DNA of 64,000 bases from Antarctobacter albus (GTDB taxonomy: Bacteria > Pseudomonadota > Alphaproteobacteria > Rhodobacterales > Rhodobacteraceae): the NCBI RefSeq assembly GCF_900101505.1, contig NZ_FMZI01000003.1, positions 310,001 to 374,000 of the forward strand, given 5' to 3'. The translations under genes and the position numbers were made by a program. This document shows positions 9,165-47,826 of this stretch, piece by piece. Positions within the stretch are counted from its first letter, which is position 1. Each line of letters begins with the position of its first letter. The notes beneath the pieces were generated by a model. The model was not told where the DNA came from. It was given only the letters and a program-made list of their open reading frames with translations, and did not search any database.

Positions 9165-9362
9165 TCAGTTTGCGGCGGGTGTGTCGTCGCCCGAAGCGGG
9201 CGCGGGGCGGTTCTCGTGGCGGAACGGGATGTTGGCCGTGTCCGAGTGGACCTTTCCCGATCCGGGCCGGAAGGCCCAGATCACGATCCCCACGAAGAAG
9301 GCGAACATCGCCAGAAGTGCCCAGCTGTCGGCCAGTTGCCGAAGGAAGGAATAGGTTTCCAT
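9165..9362 (-). CDS. ccoQ: Cbb3 oxidase small subunit CcoQ
   Basis: 65-aa protein with one transmembrane helix (about residues 12-31, DSWALLAMFAFFVGIVIWAF) and a polar tail with FRHENRP, as in CcoQ of related bacteria. CcoQ stabilises the oxidase and, in Rhodobacter, has been linked to oxygen signalling. It lies between ccoO and ccoP with gaps of 12-13 bases. Confidence 0.93.
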   Translation of the reverse strand: METYSFLRQLADSWALLAMFAFFVGIVIWAFRPGSGKVHSDTANIPFRHENRPAPASGDDTPAAN

Positions 9363-9374
9363 GTAGGTTCCTCC

Positions 9375-10103
9375 TCAGCGGCTTGCGTCGGGCGTGAAGG
9401 TCGAGAAGTCGACCAGCGTGCCCAGCATCTGGAGATAGGCGATCAGCGCGTCCGCCTCCGAGACGCCTGGGGCGCCGTCAAAGTTCCGCACGTTCACGTT
9501 CTCGCCGTAGCGCTCCAGCAGGCCATCGTAGTCGCTGTCCGGATCGGCCTGCGCCAGGAAGTCGGCCTGCGCAGCTTCGATCATCTCGTCGCTGTAGGGC
9601 ACGCCCACCATGCGGTTGGTGCTCATCAGGTCGCCGATATAGGTTCCTTCGATCAGCTTGGCCTCGAGGAAGCCGTACTTGGGCATGACCGATTCCGGCA
9701 CCACCGACTGCGGGTTGCGCAGGTGGTCGACGTGCCACTCGTCCGAGTAGCGGCCACCGACGCGCGCCAGGTCGGGCCCGGTCCGCTTCGATCCCCACTG
9801 GAACGGGTGGTCGTACTTGCTCTCGACCGCAAGGCTGTAGTGGCCATAGCGTTCGACCTCGTCCCGCATCGGGCGGATCATCTGGCTGTGACAGACGTAG
9901 CAACCCTCACGCAGGTAGACCTCGCGGCCCGCCAGTTCGAGCGGCGTGTAGGGGCGCATGCCTTCGACGTCCTCGATGGTGTTTTCGAGGTAGAAGAGCG
10001 GCACGATCTGCACCAGGCCCCCGATCGTCACCACGAGAAAGGCGAAGATGGCCAGCAGGGTGACGTTCTTTTCAAGGACGGCGTGTTTCTGAAGAATGCT
10101 CAT
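9375..10103 (-). CDS. ccoO: Cbb3 oxidase subunit II, monoheme cytochrome c CcoO
   Basis: 242-aa membrane-anchored monoheme cytochrome c. One N-terminal helix (about residues 14-36) is followed by the heme site C68-YVC-H72 in [15 protein letters not shown], a very conserved CcoO segment. It accepts electrons from CcoP and gives them to CcoN. Cotranscribed with ccoN (12-base gap). Confidence 0.96.
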
Positions 10104-10115
10104 GTCCGGTCCTCC

Positions 10116-11726
<1,611 letters not shown>

Positions 11727-41890: not shown

Positions 41891-43217
41891 ACTGCGCCAT
41901 CAGCGTCGCGTGAATGTCCTCTGCGGCGTCGCGGCCTTCGGCCACGGCGACAACGGTCAGGTCCTCGCCGGGCGTGCAGTCGCCCCCGGCCCAGACTCCC
42001 GCGACCGAGGTCCGCCCGGCGCCGTTCACCTTGACCTTGCGGCCCTCCAGGTCCAGCCCGTCGACCGGCGCCAGGGTCTGGCCGATGGCGCGGAACACCT
42101 GGTCGGCGGGCAGGCGGATGGTTTCGCCCGTGCCCTGCAGCTTGCCGTCCACCAGTTCGGTGTATTCCAGCTCGATCTCGCGCACCGCGCCGTTGCCGTG
42201 CATGGCGACAGGCATCACGTTGAACATCAGCCGCACGCCTTTGGACGCCGCCAGGTCCTGTTCAAATCCGCTGGCGGGCATTTCCTCGCGCGAGCGGCGA
42301 TAGGCCAGCGTCACTGTCTCGGCGCCCAGCAGTTTCGACTGCACGGCGGCATCCACGGCGGTCATGCCGCCGCCGATCACCACCACGTTGCGGCCCACCG
42401 GCAGGGCGGCCAGGTCGTCGCTCTGCCGCAGGTCGGAGATAAAGCGCACCGCGTCCTCGACCCCGGCCTTTTCGCCGCCCTCGATTTCCAGCAGGTTCAC
42501 CCCGGCCAGGCCGACGCCCAGGAACACCGCGTCGAAATTCTCGCGCAGCCCGTCCAGGGACACTTCGACCCCCAACGCGTTGCGGTACTCGATGGTGATG
42601 CCGCCGATGCCCAGCAGCCAGTCGACCTCGCGCGCGGCATAGCCGTCCACGGTCTTGTAGGCGGCGATGCCGTATTCGTTCAGCCCGCCGGGCCGGGGCC
42701 GCGCCTCGTAGATGGTGACCGCGTGGCCCTTCATCGCCAGCCGGTGCGCGCAGGCCAGTCCCGCGGGGCCGGCGCCCACAACCGCCACGCGCTTGCCGGT
42801 CTCGGGGGCGCGGTCAAAGGGGTGGCCCTGCCGCGCCATCAGTGCATCGGTGGAATAGCGTTGCAGCCGCCCGATCTCGACCGGCTTGCCCTCGGCGGTC
42901 TCGCGGACGCAGGCCTCTTCGCACAGCGTTTCCGTGGGGCAGACCCGGGCGCACATGCCGCCCAGGATGTTCTGTTCGAAGATCGTCTTGGCCGCCGCCT
43001 CCGGCTGGCCGGTGGCGATCTGCCGGATGAACAGCGGGATGTCGATTTCGGTGGGGCAGGCGGTCACGCAGGGCGCGTCGTGGCAGAAATAGCAACGGTC
43101 CGCCGCCACCGCCGCCTCGTGCGGGTCGTAAGGCGCGTGAAGATCCTCGAAGTTCCGAGCCAACTGATCCTGGCTGAGGCGCCCGGACTGGATGCCGGGG
43201 GTCTGCGGGCTGGTCAT
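41889..43217 (-). CDS. preT: NAD-dependent dihydropyrimidine dehydrogenase subunit PreT
   Basis: 442-aa partner of PreA, of the glutamate synthase small-subunit type. N-terminal Fe-S domain with cysteine groups CYFCHDAPCVTACP and MCARVCPTETLCEEAC, then an FAD site (AVVGAGPAGLACAHRL) and an NAD site (VVVIGGGMTAVDAA). It passes electrons from NADH to PreA. A RutR-like palindrome lies 52 bases upstream of its start. Confidence 0.95.
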   Translation of the reverse strand: MTSPQTPGIQSGRLSQDQLARNFEDLHAPYDPHEAAVAADRCYFCHDAPCVTACPTEIDIPLFIRQIATGQPEAAAKTIFEQNILGGMCARVCPTETLCEEACVRETAEGKPVEIGRLQRYSTDALMARQGHPFDRAPETGKRVAVVGAGPAGLACAHRLAMKGHAVTIYEARPRPGGLNEYGIAAYKTVDGYAAREVDWLLGIGGITIEYRNALGVEVSLDGLRENFDAVFLGVGLAGVNLLEIEGGEKAGVEDAVRFISDLRQSDDLAALPVGRNVVVIGGGMTAVDAAVQSKLLGAETVTLAYRRSREEMPASGFEQDLAASKGVRLMFNVMPVAMHGNGAVREIELEYTELVDGKLQGTGETIRLPADQVFRAIGQTLAPVDGLDLEGRKVKVNGAGRTSVAGVWAGGDCTPGEDLTVVAVAEGRDAAEDIHATLMAQ

Positions 43218-43268
43218 GGCCTCTCCCTGTTTTTTTCCTGTTCTGTGGACTCAGCCTGCCACAGGTCG

Positions 43269-43292
43269 GAATTTTATCAAACGGTAAAATTC
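43269..43292. promoter_or_regulatory. Second RutR-like palindrome, upstream of preT
   Basis: GAATTTTA / TAAAATTC arms around TCAAACGG. Aligned by its centre with the 39557-39578 operator, 16 of 22 bases agree, including the central CAA and CGGT. It is probably the operator of preTA. Confidence 0.65.
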
Positions 43293-43343
43293 TGCCCCGG
43301 CCAGAAACCCGCTGTTTTTCCGCCCTCTGCCCACCCGCGCAGC

Positions 43344-43367
43344 AAAAAGGGGGCCGCCGGCCCCCTT
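43344..43367 (-). terminator. Terminator of the OmpA-like gene
   Basis: On the minus strand, AAGGGGGCC and GGCCCCCTT arms followed by TTTT, 25 bases after the stop at 43392. Confidence 0.88.
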
Positions 43368-43391
43368 GTCTTCGGCAGGTCGCCCGGCTGG

Positions 43392-44060
43392 TCAGGCGCC
43401 GGGCACCAGCACCAGCTGAACACGGCGGTTCTCGGCGGCATCCGGCGCGCGCGTGTTCTTGAGATAGTCAAAGCCCACGCCCACCGCCTCGATCTGGCCG
43501 GTGCCCAGGCGCATGGTGCCCTGGACATAACGCGCGACGGCATTGGCCCGGCGCTGCGACAGCGCCTTGTTGTAGGCCGCGCCCCCCACCGCGTCGGTGT
43601 GGCCGATGAAGATCAGCTTGCTGTCCTTCAGCCGCGGATCGCTGAGCGCATTGGCCAGGGTCGACAGTTTCGCCATCGCCTGCGGCGTCAGCGCGTCCGA
43701 ATCGTAGGCAAAGAGCACCTCGAGGTCGATGGTCGGCAGCGGTTCGGGCTTTTTCGTGCGGTCCTCGATGGCGATGGCCACGCCGGCCCGGGCCGGCGTG
43801 GCCGAGGCCGGCGGCTTGGGCTTGCGCTCGACCACGCCCAGGTTGACCACGTCGTCCAGCGTGAACTTGGCCCCGCCGCCGAATTCGGCGTTGTCGCAGG
43901 CCGTCGGATCGACAAGGCAATCGCGCATCTCCGCGGCGGCGGCATCCGGCTTGGGCGGATCCCCGAGAGAGAAACTGTCCAGCGTCACGGTCGACTGGGC
44001 GAAGGCCACGCCGGGCAGGACCAGCGCGGCGGCGAAAAGGGGAAGGATCGTCTTGGTCAT
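43392..44060 (-). CDS. OmpA-family periplasmic protein
   Basis: 222 aa. Signal peptide residues 1-21 (MTKTILPLFAAALVLPGVAF, cleaved near AQS). A middle segment with two cysteines (DCLVDPTACDNAEFG) and prolines leads to an OmpA-like peptidoglycan-binding domain at about 118-220 (LEVLFAYDSDALTPQ; FIGHTDAVGGAAYNKALSQRR). No lipobox, so it is probably periplasmic or loosely attached to the outer membrane. It is divergent from the secreted protease gene across 252 bases. Confidence 0.9.
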   Translation of the reverse strand: MTKTILPLFAAALVLPGVAFAQSTVTLDSFSLGDPPKPDAAAAEMRDCLVDPTACDNAEFGGGAKFTLDDVVNLGVVERKPKPPASATPARAGVAIAIEDRTKKPEPLPTIDLEVLFAYDSDALTPQAMAKLSTLANALSDPRLKDSKLIFIGHTDAVGGAAYNKALSQRRANAVARYVQGTMRLGTGQIEAVGVGFDYLKNTRAPDAAENRRVQLVLVPGA

Positions 44061-44272
44061 GGCAATATCCAGCGTTGGTCAGAAGGAAAGCAGGTATTTC
44101 GGCACGATTGCCAGCTGCACCCGGCTGAGTGTCGTGCCTGGGCCAGGGCGGCAAGGATCAGAATGGGAAATGAACGGTGCATCGCGGCCCCCGGAAAATA
44201 TGGGGACAAGATACCCGAAATCCCCTGCTTTTTCCACTTACCGCATTTTTTCCAAGCGCGCAGGTAGGGATT

Positions 44273-44281
44273 TGCTATGCT
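44273..44281 (+). promoter_or_regulatory. Possible extended -10 promoter of the protease operon
   Basis: TTGCTATGCT contains a TG-x-TATGCT extended -10 element 31 bases before the protease ATG. No convincing -35 hexamer is seen. Confidence 0.3.
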
Positions 44282-44312
44282 TCCCCCGGATTTGTCTGAC
44301 CAGAGGATTGCC

Positions 44313-45530
44313 ATGCCCCGCGTTGTCCGCCCGTTTGCCGCTGCCTCTGCCGTGGCGCTCTGCCTCCTGCCCGCACAGGCCCCGGCCCAGGACGGGATCC
44401 AGAAGGAACTGGCCATCGAGGGCTACAACAACGAGGCGATCTATACCTACGCCGAAAGCTCGGACTTCCGAAGGCTGGGCCGGGGCGTCGGCAAGCTGCA
44501 GATCCGGACCGACGCGGGCGAAAACCCCTGCACTGCCTTCCTGGTTGATGCCACCCATATCCTGACCAACTACCATTGCATTCCCGGCGTGCTGGAAGAC
44601 CCGCGCATCGGCGCCACGGAAATCACCTCGGTCACCTGGATCGCCGGGTTCGTCGAGCCGGGCCGGGACGAGGAAACCGCGCGTTTCACCGTCAACCCGG
44701 TCCCGGTCGAAAGCTCGGCAGAGCTGGACTATTCCGTGCTCGAGGTGACGGGCGTGCCGACCGACCGCTTTCCGCCCTTGCCGCTGTCCGATGCCCCGCC
44801 GGTCGAGGGGATGCCCTTCTGGATCATCGGCCACCCGATGGGCAAGTCGCAGCACATCAGCCGCGAGGGCTGCCGCGCCGCGCGTCCACCGCTGGAAAAG
44901 GCGCCCGAGGCCCAGTCGGGGCAGCGGGTGCGCCATACCTGCGATACGCTGGGCGGCAATTCCGGCTCTCCGATCATCGACAGTTCCGCCCGCCGGGTGA
45001 TTGCCCTGCACAACTCCGGCAACCGCAATGTGGGCATCAACTACGGCATCCCGATGGCCGAGATCCTGGCGCAGTCAAAGGTGCTGCTTAAACCGGGCCC
45101 CGTGGCAAAACCCAAGGCGCTGCCGATGCTCATGTCGGCCTTTCCCGCCAGTCTTGGCGTAGGTGGGGAACTGTCGCTGGTGGCCGACATGCCTGCCGAC
45201 TGCACACCGGCTTTTGTCGACATCTCGCCCAGCCTGCAACTGACGCCGATCCCGCTGGAAGTCTTCGAGAAGGTCGATCTTGGTCCCGGCCAGACCCGCT
45301 ACCAGGTCACCCCGACCAGCCGCTATGCCGTCGTGGTGCAGGAACAGGACGAAAAGGGCGAACATCGCATCGGCTATCTCTGCAGCAGTAGCGGCGTCAG
45401 CGATGCCGAACAGTTGAAATCGGCCCTGCGGCTGGTGGTGGCCGACCTGAACAAGGGGCAGCTTTCGGGCAAGGTCACACTCGATGGCGGTACCGTCGAC
45501 TACGCCTTCAAGAGCTACGTGATCGAGTAA
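44313..45530 (+). CDS. Secreted trypsin-like serine protease
   Basis: 405 aa. Signal peptide residues 1-26 (ends PAQAPAQ). A trypsin-like domain covers about 55-250 with a full triad: H88 in ILTNYHC, D139 in AELDYSVLEV and S217 in GGNSGSP. Cysteines C73, C89, C187 and C210 may form disulfides. Residues 280-405 are a separate, unrecognised domain with two further cysteines. Start chosen at ATG 44313 after AGAGGA. Its stop codon overlaps the start of the ClpP-like gene by one base, so the two are made together. Confidence 0.85.
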   Translation: MPRVVRPFAAASAVALCLLPAQAPAQDGIQKELAIEGYNNEAIYTYAESSDFRRLGRGVGKLQIRTDAGENPCTAFLVDATHILTNYHCIPGVLEDPRIGATEITSVTWIAGFVEPGRDEETARFTVNPVPVESSAELDYSVLEVTGVPTDRFPPLPLSDAPPVEGMPFWIIGHPMGKSQHISREGCRAARPPLEKAPEAQSGQRVRHTCDTLGGNSGSPIIDSSARRVIALHNSGNRNVGINYGIPMAEILAQSKVLLKPGPVAKPKALPMLMSAFPASLGVGGELSLVADMPADCTPAFVDISPSLQLTPIPLEVFEKVDLGPGQTRYQVTPTSRYAVVVQEQDEKGEHRIGYLCSSSGVSDAEQLKSALRLVVADLNKGQLSGKVTLDGGTVDYAFKSYVIE

Positions 45531-47041
45531 TGTGCCTGATCCGCGCGGTCCTCGCCGCGACCCTGACCCTGATTGGCAGCGCCGCCCTTTCAGCCGAGAT
45601 CTCCCTGCGCGACGACCTGCGCCCGCGGCTGTCACAGCTCTGGCCGATCTACGGCGAGGAAACGAACACTGGCCGCAACCGTCCCGTGGTCCTTCCGGCG
45701 GGTGAAGAAGATGGATACTATCCCAACGGCCTGCGGATCATCTCGGTCTCGGGTGTGATTGAACCCGGCGATGCCGAGCGGCTTGCCGCGATGATCCGGG
45801 TAGCGGTCCCTGTTCCAGCATTTGTCATCGTCTTCGACAGCCCAGGCGGCAATTTCGCGGAAGGGGTCAAGATCGGTCGCCTGCTGAGCCACTATCGTGA
45901 GGGAAATGCTGCTCCGAAGCTGCATGGCGTGATCGTCCTTGACGACGCGGAGTGCATGTCCGCCTGCGCCGTGGCATTCACCTTGGCGGCCAAGCTACGC
46001 GATTCCGGTCGGTCGGTGCGCTATGTCGAACAGGGGGCGCAGCTGGGCTTTCACATGCCGTACGTCCCGGTGGACCAGCAAGATCGCCAGACTGAAATCG
46101 TTGCCGCGATGGACCTCACCTATCAGATCATGTCGGAATACATTCGTTTGATCGGCAACGGCATCGCGCCCTCGGCGTTGGTGCAAAATGCGCTTCACTA
46201 CCGCCGCCCCGACGCGTTCTTTCTGTTGCGTGGGGGGCTGGTGACGCGGTTCATGGACTTTGTCCCGGTCGCGGGGCCGAAGGGCAGTACGCCATTGGCT
46301 CTCTCTGGCCTAACCCAGCGCGACGCGCTCAACATGTGCCAGTATCTGACCTATTCGCAGGGGCGCGACATGATCGCCGCCGAATACGAGTTCTGGCCGG
46401 TCGACATAGGCAGCGAATTTCCCGATGACACCCCGCTCAAGACCCTTTTCGAAAGATACGGCGATCGCCGGCTGGCCAATGACGGGTGCAGTATCGAGTG
46501 GCAGCAGGGCGATATACTGGGCATTGCCGCCTTCGGTGACTGTGGCCGCCGGTCCACCGGCAGCGGATGGTGTGCGGCGCCGCGAAACAACAACGGTTAC
46601 ACCCAGCACCGGGGCGACCTTCCGCGCGCCACTGGCGCCCTGCTTGGGGACAGCCTCGGCTGTCACGGCGGAAACCTGACCACCCGCTATTACCGCTGGG
46701 ACGCGGGCAACCGGTTCTTCGAAGAGGAAGACCCCGAGGCCTACAGCTGGGTCGGAGAACGCCATGACGCGCCCGAAGCGCCGATCCTGTCGATGGACTG
46801 GTCCGGCGCGCGGCTCGAAACCAATCTCAACATTCGCAGCGCGCCCGGCGGCGACCGTCTCGCCCGCTGGTCCGAGGGCACCCCGGTCGAGGTGCTGGAC
46901 TGCACCCTTTCTGCGGACGGGCAGGGGGTCTGGTACCAGGTCCGCGGCGAGGGGCAGACCGGCTGGGCCAGCGCCCGCTACCTCGAGGTGCCGGCGTTTG
47001 CGGGATGGGATCTGATGATCCGGCCGGGCGGTTTCGAATAG
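45530..47041 (+). CDS. Secreted ClpP/SppA-fold protein with C-terminal SH3-like domain
   Basis: 503 aa. Signal peptide at residues 1-22 (ends GSAALSA). The ClpP/crotonase-like domain (about 65-240, COG3904-like) has DSPGGN at 103-108, a probable nucleophile S144 between two cysteines (ECMSACAVAF) and H175 in QLGFHMPY. A cysteine-containing middle region follows, then an SH3b-type domain at about 440-495 (ETNLNIRSAPGGDRLARW; WYQVRGEGQTGWASARYL), usually a cell-wall-binding module. Function of the family is unknown; a periplasmic peptidase is plausible. Coupled to the trypsin-like gene. Confidence 0.8.
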   Translation: MCLIRAVLAATLTLIGSAALSAEISLRDDLRPRLSQLWPIYGEETNTGRNRPVVLPAGEEDGYYPNGLRIISVSGVIEPGDAERLAAMIRVAVPVPAFVIVFDSPGGNFAEGVKIGRLLSHYREGNAAPKLHGVIVLDDAECMSACAVAFTLAAKLRDSGRSVRYVEQGAQLGFHMPYVPVDQQDRQTEIVAAMDLTYQIMSEYIRLIGNGIAPSALVQNALHYRRPDAFFLLRGGLVTRFMDFVPVAGPKGSTPLALSGLTQRDALNMCQYLTYSQGRDMIAAEYEFWPVDIGSEFPDDTPLKTLFERYGDRRLANDGCSIEWQQGDILGIAAFGDCGRRSTGSGWCAAPRNNNGYTQHRGDLPRATGALLGDSLGCHGGNLTTRYYRWDAGNRFFEEEDPEAYSWVGERHDAPEAPILSMDWSGARLETNLNIRSAPGGDRLARWSEGTPVEVLDCTLSADGQGVWYQVRGEGQTGWASARYLEVPAFAGWDLMIRPGGFE

Positions 47042-47099
47042 GCGGGCAGGAGGCGGGTTAACGAAACCTGACCGCTTTGTACGAAATGCTGGAATCGCC

Positions 47100-47121
47100 G
47101 TACGTTTTGTACAAAACGTAC
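47100..47121. repeat. Perfect 22-bp AT-centred palindrome in a convergent gap
   Basis: The half-site GTACGTTTTGT is followed at once by its exact complement. Further TTTGTAC (47086-47092) and GTACAAA (47118-47124) words sit beside it. The gap lies between two converging gene ends, so it is not an ordinary promoter operator, and with no GC stem it is not a terminator. Confidence 0.75.
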
Positions 47122-47136
47122 AAACCGCGACGGGGG

Positions 47137-47826
47137 TCAGACGCCCAGGTAGCGGTGCGCCAGTTCCGGGTCCAAGCCATCCAGCGCCCCGGTCCAGGCC
47201 GTGCGCCCCCGGTTCAGGATCACCGCCCGGTCAGAGACCTGCGTCAGTTCCTTCAGGCTCTTGTCGATGATCAGAATGGCCATGCCCGTCTCTCGCTTAA
47301 GCTGGCTGATGGCCTCCCAGATTTCCTGCCGGATCAGCGGTGCCAGCCCCTCTGTCGCCTCGTCCAGGATCAGCAGGCGCGGGTTCGTCATCAGCGCCCG
47401 GCCGATCGCCAGCATCTGCTGTTCCCCTCCCGACAGCGACCGCGCCACCTGTGTCCGGCGTTCGCCCAGGCGCGGAAACAACATGCCCACCTTGCCCATG
47501 TCCCAGGGGCCGGGACGGGCGGCGGCGGTCAGGTTCTCCTGCACCGTCAGGTCCGCGAAACAGCGCCGCCCCTCGGGCACCAGACCAATCCCCAGCCGCG
47601 CGGCGCGGTGCGCGGGAAGACGGCGCAAGTCCTTGCCGTCAAAAGAAATATCCCCCTCGGCGCGCAGCAGGCGGCAGATGCATTTCACCGTGGTCGTCTT
47701 GCCCATGCCGTTGCGCCCCATCAGCGCCACGACCTCGCCCGAGGCGACCTGAAGGTCGACCCCGAACAGCGCCTGGCTGGCGCCGTAGGTGGCTTTCAGC
47801 CCTTCGACCTGCAAGAGCGCGCTCAT
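47137..47826 (-). CDS. livF: Branched-chain amino-acid ABC transporter ATPase LivF
   Basis: 229-aa ATP-binding subunit. Walker A GRNGMGKTT, signature LSGGEQQM and Walker B LLILDEATEGLAP, the last typical of LivF. It overlaps livG by 4 bases and is the last gene of the operon. Confidence 0.93.
   Translation of the reverse strand: MSALLQVEGLKATYGASQALFGVDLQVASGEVVALMGRNGMGKTTTVKCICRLLRAEGDISFDGKDLRRLPAHRAARLGIGLVPEGRRCFADLTVQENLTAAARPGPWDMGKVGMLFPRLGERRTQVARSLSGGEQQMLAIGRALMTNPRLLILDEATEGLAPLIRQEIWEAISQLKRETGMAILIIDKSLKELTQVSDRAVILNRGRTAWTGALDGLDPELAHRYLGV

Follow-up and report, generated by a model that had tools for sequence, protein, structure and literature searches.

What joins the three neighbouring genes that lie between positions 43392 and 47041 of the 64,000-nucleotide stretch of the Antarctobacter albus genome analysed here (hereafter, the window), and which of them belong to one unit? 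On the plus strand, the gene of a trypsin-like protease of 405 residues (P0001, 44313-45530) runs directly into that of a ClpP-fold protein of 503 residues (P0002, 45530-47041), with one A shared by the TAA stop codon of the former (45528-45530) and the ATG of the latter (45530-45532); an OmpA-domain protein of 222 residues (P0003, 43392-44060) is encoded divergently on the minus strand. All three proteins appear to be exported, as judged by eye from their N termini. An earlier sequence-only reading had taken the two plus-strand genes for a coupled pair, and its coordinates, reading frames and one-base junction proved exact. Our comparisons lead us to favour a wider arrangement, to which we assign a probability of roughly 0.55: the three genes would encode an exported, peptidoglycan-tethered proteolysis module composed of an exchangeable catalytic head, a docking domain, a dedicated OmpA anchor and an optional ClpP-fold peptidase. 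In what follows, G000 designates the genome of the window (5.26 Mb), G149-G153 are other genomes of its genus and L-numbers denote loci; genes outside the window come from simple script calls and their start positions are rough.

P0001 is, by fold and residue placement, a trypsin/V8-like serine protease, with a predicted His-Asp-Ser triad in a chymotrypsin (S1) fold. It matches Pfam Trypsin_2 at 6e-19, and the intact triad that had been read from its sequence (H88/D139/S217) is numbered correctly and retained in 10/10 aligned trypsin-headed proteins that share its C-terminal domain. The predicted model (mean predicted local distance difference test score, pLDDT, 78.3; predicted template modelling score, pTM, 0.54) superposes on glutamyl endopeptidase with Z 22.4 and a root-mean-square deviation (rmsd) of 2.9 over 195 residues in the VIA rows, which cover the trypsin domain (residues 30-262 of the P0001 model) and the ClpP domain (residues 25-251 of the P0002 model) only. 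P0001 thus resembles the glutamyl endopeptidases V8 and ESP in catalytic fold and triad, at 17-19% identity to rows of that type. It also resembles HtrA/DegP in fold (Z 21.3 to DegP) and triad, at 14% identity to DegP, but carries its own C-terminal domain in place of PDZ; an HtrA/Deg-type identity was rejected because no PDZ domain appears in a Pfam scan of P0001 at E up to 1. Neither P0001 nor P0002 has an NCBIfam match at E 0.01. Behind its signal-peptide-like start P0001 has 6 cysteines, and P0002 has 8 after its presumed signal peptide, so that the cysteine-rich regions once attributed to both proteins are only partly an apt description.

The C-terminal domain of P0001 (residues 266-405; 45108-45527, plus strand), called CTD here, is common to caspase-headed proteins of other genera. 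In family-wide surveys that scored the best candidates of each genome (at most 10 for the CTD profile and at most 13 for A8, a profile of the OmpA protein's N-terminal segment), the CTD was found in 11/394 genomes, representing 10 genera. The head attached to it is trypsin-like in G000, G149, G002, G020, G325 and G335. In G100, G309, G198, G082 and G099 it is a caspase, matching Peptidase_C14 at E 4e-35 to 2e-39 and showing GHG and DACR motifs, the latter seen by eye; these five relatives have the C14 domain that Pfam does not find in the trypsin-headed window protease. The CTDs behind caspase heads are 36-40% identical to that of P0001, and 14 columns are invariant across the 15 aligned sequences. 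Moreover, the CTD tree and the OmpA tree each require a single change of head. Comparison of these sequences shows that a constant CTD carries an exchangeable catalytic head, of V8/trypsin type here and of caspase type in other genera. As for the nature of the CTD itself, none of its 15 copies has a Pfam match below E 0.04, and none matches PF14326 (DUF4384) at E up to 10. An hhalign comparison with DUF4384-bearing tails gave P 0.0067, with a probability of only 5.7%, over 85 columns in which cysteines are aligned; for 4 control pairs the P values were 0.12-0.35. The CTD is possibly a DUF4384 that has diverged.

The companion that accompanies the CTD protease throughout is P0003. The sequence-only reading had recorded it correctly as a divergent OmpA-domain protein. 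Its Pfam OmpA match (PF00691, 6.8e-17; residues 116-211; 43428-43715, minus strand) makes it an OmpA-like peptidoglycan-associated protein by virtue of its OmpA C-terminal domain, with peptidoglycan binding predicted. Ahead of this domain lies a segment with the motif QSxxTLDxF ... CLxDPxxC ... DDVVNLG (43731-44003, minus strand; alignment of 12), from which profile A8 derives. This profile was seeded with OmpA proteins already known as neighbours of the protease and tests only for further ones elsewhere; it was found in 11/388 family genomes, the same 11 that have the CTD, although the 388 are not confirmed as a subset of the 394. We inspected the neighbourhoods in 15 genomes, namely the 11 CTD-positive family genomes and G150-G153, and in 15/15 the OmpA gene adjoins the CTD protease or lies one or two genes away, with the two oriented divergently, convergently or on the same strand. 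Within the genus, a P0001 orthologue with an adjoining OmpA gene is present in 6/6 genomes (68-100% identity). These comparisons show the adjacent OmpA-domain protein, and not the ClpP-like protein, to be the apparent constant partner of the CTD protease, a role that the sequence-only reading had underrated. In three genomes the OmpA partner is tandemly duplicated, with one copy more diverged (L114:10774-12118 in G151, L111:9259-10606 in G149 and L138:6968-8914 in G099).

P0002 could be assigned to the ClpP (S14) type by the fold of its predicted model and by the position of a candidate Ser nucleophile and His base. The model (mean pLDDT 73.5, pTM 0.77) finds ClpP in 50/50 of the VIA matches listed, the best with Z 14.2 and rmsd 6.2 over 173 residues and a tied row with Z 14.1 and rmsd 2.9 over 161 residues, in agreement with the ClpP fold proposed earlier. 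The domain (45719-46282, plus strand) contains S144 in CMSAC and H175 in GFH. The C142-x-S144-A-C146 motif and H175 are invariant in 13 aligned sequences, which fits the catalytic pair that had been put forward as plausible, and SPGG, CxSxC and GxH are invariant in 18. In the model, S144 stands at the beginning of a helix, after a strand, and H175 likewise comes after a strand, a placement that we take to fit ClpP topology. With regard to the Ser-Lys dyad of SppA (S49), the residue seen at the ClpP base position of P0002 is a histidine (H175), and no lysine was mapped. P0002 resembles ClpP in fold and in the positions of S144 and H175; it differs in that it looks exported, does not conserve the place of the catalytic Asp, has the CxSxC motif and bears extra domains. 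Pfam detects in it only the expected bacterial SH3 (SH3b) domain (SH3_3, 2.3e-9; residues 432-486; 46823-46987, plus strand): CLP_protease gives no match at E up to 1, and the relative L074 reaches a sub-cut-off value of 0.0023. Of seven other ClpP-like genes of the same genome in one search, only that on contig C22 has a P0001-like gene near it. One ClpP-fold paralogue (L031:5432-7000) is probably without a nucleophile, because CLNAC replaces CxSAC.

How regularly does P0002 accompany the protease? Its presence or absence was scored with a clean ClpP profile (A7), and absence refers to the fetched stretches around the protease only. A ClpP-like gene follows the protease in 4/6 genus genomes (G000, G150, G151 and G153), and in G325, from another genus, all three genes occur in the same order. 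In G020 the genes are rearranged to trypsin, OmpA and ClpP-SH3b on one strand, and in G198 the stop codon of a caspase-CTD gene overlaps the ClpP start by 4 nt. The pair is thus conserved beyond close relatives, which the sequence-only reading had left to be checked. The protease and ClpP genes share 1 or 4 bases in G000, G150, G151, G153, G325 and, behind the caspase head, G198, and a ClpP-fold gene overlaps the protease stop codon in 3 genera, one of them with a caspase head. In G152 a 292-base gap after the protease retains 131 bases at 88.6% identity to the window, and the ClpP-like gene must have been deleted there, because its last 13 codons and stop remain; in G149, after the overlap, only some bases resemble the start of the ClpP-like gene (by eye). 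Counted by genus, 6/10 (G000, G325, G020, G309, G198 and G099) have a ClpP-like gene no more than about 6 kb from the CTD protease. Under a simple uniform random placement, with the 6 kb limit set after seeing the data and G100 counted as absent, this proximity has P 7e-8, or 3e-5 after related lineages are collapsed, by judgement, to eight. In addition, the P0002 relative that scores best outside the genus (149-genome search) lies in G082, 156 bases behind a same-strand caspase frame, and has the SH3b tail in the alignment.

The ClpP-like, protease and OmpA genes evolve under constraint. The ratio of nonsynonymous to synonymous substitution rates (dN/dS) stays under 0.53 in all pairs, whichever of the three genes is taken, and for the ClpP-like gene it is 0.14-0.17 within the genus (0.174 for G000 and G153) and 0.28-0.36 relative to G325. 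Together, the comparison of loci shows the predicted ClpP-fold protein to be a frequent but dispensable third part, accessory here and lost in some relatives, with an SH3b tail in the window and other tails elsewhere.

These distributions bear directly on how the genes should be grouped. It could be argued that the trypsin-like and ClpP-like proteins alone form a two-protease pair for envelope quality control, with the OmpA gene as a bystander; the one-base junction, the synteny in 4/6 genus genomes and G325 and the catalytic residues kept in both proteins speak for it. We nevertheless consider this explanation quite unlikely, given that the ClpP gene is deleted in G152 and was not found in the stretches fetched around the protease in G149, G002, G335 and G082, whereas the OmpA gene is present in 15/15. 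The protease/ClpP link first proposed is more than local, but the two genes are not the unit: we reject the pair as the whole because ClpP is dispensable while OmpA is constant. Nor are the genes likely to be together by accident. ClpP-like genes are numerous, with at least 16 matches in the own genome, which would make a fortuitous neighbour conceivable, but the random-placement P of 7e-8 to 3e-5 and the fact that the searches for OmpA partner and CTD arrive at one identical set of 11 genomes leave this a negligible prospect, and chance adjacency was rejected on the placement values. Nutrient-scavenging exoproteases co-inherited by happenstance would agree with the signal-peptide-like N termini (by eye) and with the 16 trypsin-like matches in the genome; they would leave the pairing with one OmpA subfamily unexplained, and the OmpA, SH3b and PG_binding modules point instead to retention at the wall, which makes this account very improbable.

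A conflict or self-killing device, in which an exported protease effector is freed upon phage or predator attack, in the manner of cytosolic trypsin/caspase effector systems, deserves closer attention. In this regard, replacement of trypsin by caspase recalls nucleoside triphosphate (NTP)-dependent conflict systems, some of which have OmpA and Sel1 domains according to the sections of PMC7159879 drawn on here, and a patchy distribution with gene loss would be in keeping with such a role. On the other hand, PADLOC matches fall only on the protease domain of P0001 or on the OmpA/MotB domain of P0003, with none for P0002; no NTPase besides subunits of ATP-binding cassette (ABC) transporters was recognised by eye among the window neighbours; and across the genus these genes keep a syntenic place among metabolic and transporter genes. 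We therefore regard a conflict function as unlikely.

Several observations also weigh against the tethered proteolysis module that we prefer. The CTD occurs in only about 3% of the sampled family genomes, and an extended CTD profile run on a sample of the class was found in 1/385 genomes, the window's own only. The single head swap has weak support in the CTD tree (73/40) and moderate support in the OmpA tree (89/88). No ClpP-like gene was found in the fetched stretches around the protease in 5/15 genomes (G149, G152, G002, G335 and G082), and none was seen on the short 8-kb contig of G100. The caspase frame that precedes the ClpP-SH3b gene in G082 is without a CTD and, near the contig end, no in-frame start codon was found for it; five other P0002-like genes (in G002, G100, G149, G150 and G152) have no protease neighbour recognised by the profiles. 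Finally, position 228 of P0002, an Asp presumably near the place of ClpP Asp171, varies among relatives, which leaves the third member of the ClpP triad without conservation.

Under the module reading, the OmpA domain of P0003 would hold the complex on peptidoglycan, and its cysteine-bearing N-terminal segment would dock the CTD of the protease. Such docking could restrain the head near the wall until an envelope signal releases it or switches it on, and the freed head would then cut periplasmic proteins that are damaged or foreign. The Ser-His peptidase of ClpP fold, located at the wall via its SH3b domain, could degrade the resulting fragments or widen the specificity. That one and the same CTD and OmpA partner are found whether the head is a trypsin or a caspase suggests that both kinds of head perform equivalent work within a single device. 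Peptidoglycan-linked proteolysis, offered as a guess by the sequence-only reading, would be a fair one.

The same modules recur elsewhere. At L023 of the own genome, a trypsin-like paralogue is followed by a cytochrome c-type protein and then by an OmpA protein. Pacificoceanicola, Tropicibacter, Pelagimonas and others have loci in which a trypsin-like gene stands with the gene of a long protein that bears the same tail and with an OmpA gene. Pfam places two SH3b domains on the trypsin-like protein of the own genome, and both middle proteins that were scanned match DUF4384 and cytochrome c-type families. Therefore, from this parallel operon, the modules trypsin, SH3b, DUF4384 and OmpA also occur split differently over genes. 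In the G198 cluster, too, there is a cytochrome c-DUF4384 protein, along with a second caspase to which NCBIfam assigns an F5/8-type domain, as Pfam does for its homologue in G309. Two large clusters of exported-looking proteins, L136:4639-16935 in G198 and L135:27-10831 in G309, contain cytochrome c-DUF4384, two caspases and OmpA; ClpP-fold genes number three in G198 and two in G309, and their tails match PAN (5e-13) and, more weakly and below the cut-off, Sel1 and PG_binding.

In the own genome, a one-strand array at L034:6388-10080 reads OmpA, a 347-residue protein of unknown type, a trypsin-like protein and OmpA. Four trypsin-like paralogues in a 23-row alignment are without the triad, with LNE, LGS, RGA and AGL at the three places; the loci concerned are L022:8425-9276 and 9335-11473, L021:6836-8032, L025:5540-8833 and L035:6846-9470. 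Two of these paralogues directly adjoin active ones, as if they were pseudoprotease/protease pairs. At L021:8122-16507 (contig C34) three trypsin paralogues lie in tandem, each with its triad intact and with a tail of its own: one with nothing recognised, one TPR/Sel1-like with PG_binding and one with a large beta-helix (NosD-like) domain. As to regulation, no sigma-70-like promoter was found in positions 43000-47200 of the window, a result of little weight for this organism. Just 3' of P0002, between convergent genes, lies a perfect 22-base palindrome (47100-47121; GTACGTTTTGTACAAAACGTAC), whose 18-base core, at up to 2 mismatches, occurs 28 + 23 times on the two genome strands (1 + 0 for the reversed control). 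One copy (L024:7703-7722) precedes a further trypsin paralogue by about 150 bases, and the palindrome is possibly the operator of a regulator.

For the study of exported bacterial caspases, a small system of two to three genes in a marine bacterium, whose substrate, anchor and activation can be tested, would be of value, and it would provide a concrete setting for the many exported proteins of ClpP fold to which no named role is attached, of which the own genome has at least 16 matches. Caspase-OmpA operons and trypsin/caspase exchange are each already known separately. The literature searched, which left subscription papers mostly outside, yielded no description of a protease that is exported, paired with OmpA, able to swap heads and accompanied by a protein of ClpP fold.

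Among the closest known systems are metacaspase operons: in the sections of PMC3501461 drawn on here, alphaproteobacteria are rich in caspases and OmpA domains occur in 14/217 metacaspase operons, so that caspase genes are predicted to be in operons with OmpA-domain proteins as in our loci, but no shared C-terminal domain, trypsin-headed counterpart or ClpP-fold partner is described in those sections. Nuclease-protease pairs of antiviral immunity, as presented in the part of PMC12799240 used, offer another parallel, given that a trypsin-like protease is there the mobile part working with a partner enzyme; that partner, however, is a nuclease proenzyme. In the NTP-dependent conflict systems (vWA-MoxR, iSTAND), the relevant sections of PMC7159879 indicate that trypsin and caspase effectors are mutually exclusive and that some iSTAND systems have OmpA and Sel1 modules; these systems are built around NTPase cores, whereas the parts described here have the look of exported proteins, and inspection by eye recognised no NTPase of that kind alongside them. 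It is a possibility, still tentative, that the locus belongs to a hitherto undescribed periplasmic protease platform of Rhodobacteraceae, in which one docking domain would serve a trypsin or a caspase head together with an obligate OmpA anchor and, often, a ClpP-fold Ser-His peptidase; it would play in the envelope a part like that of the trypsin/caspase effector systems in the cytosol.

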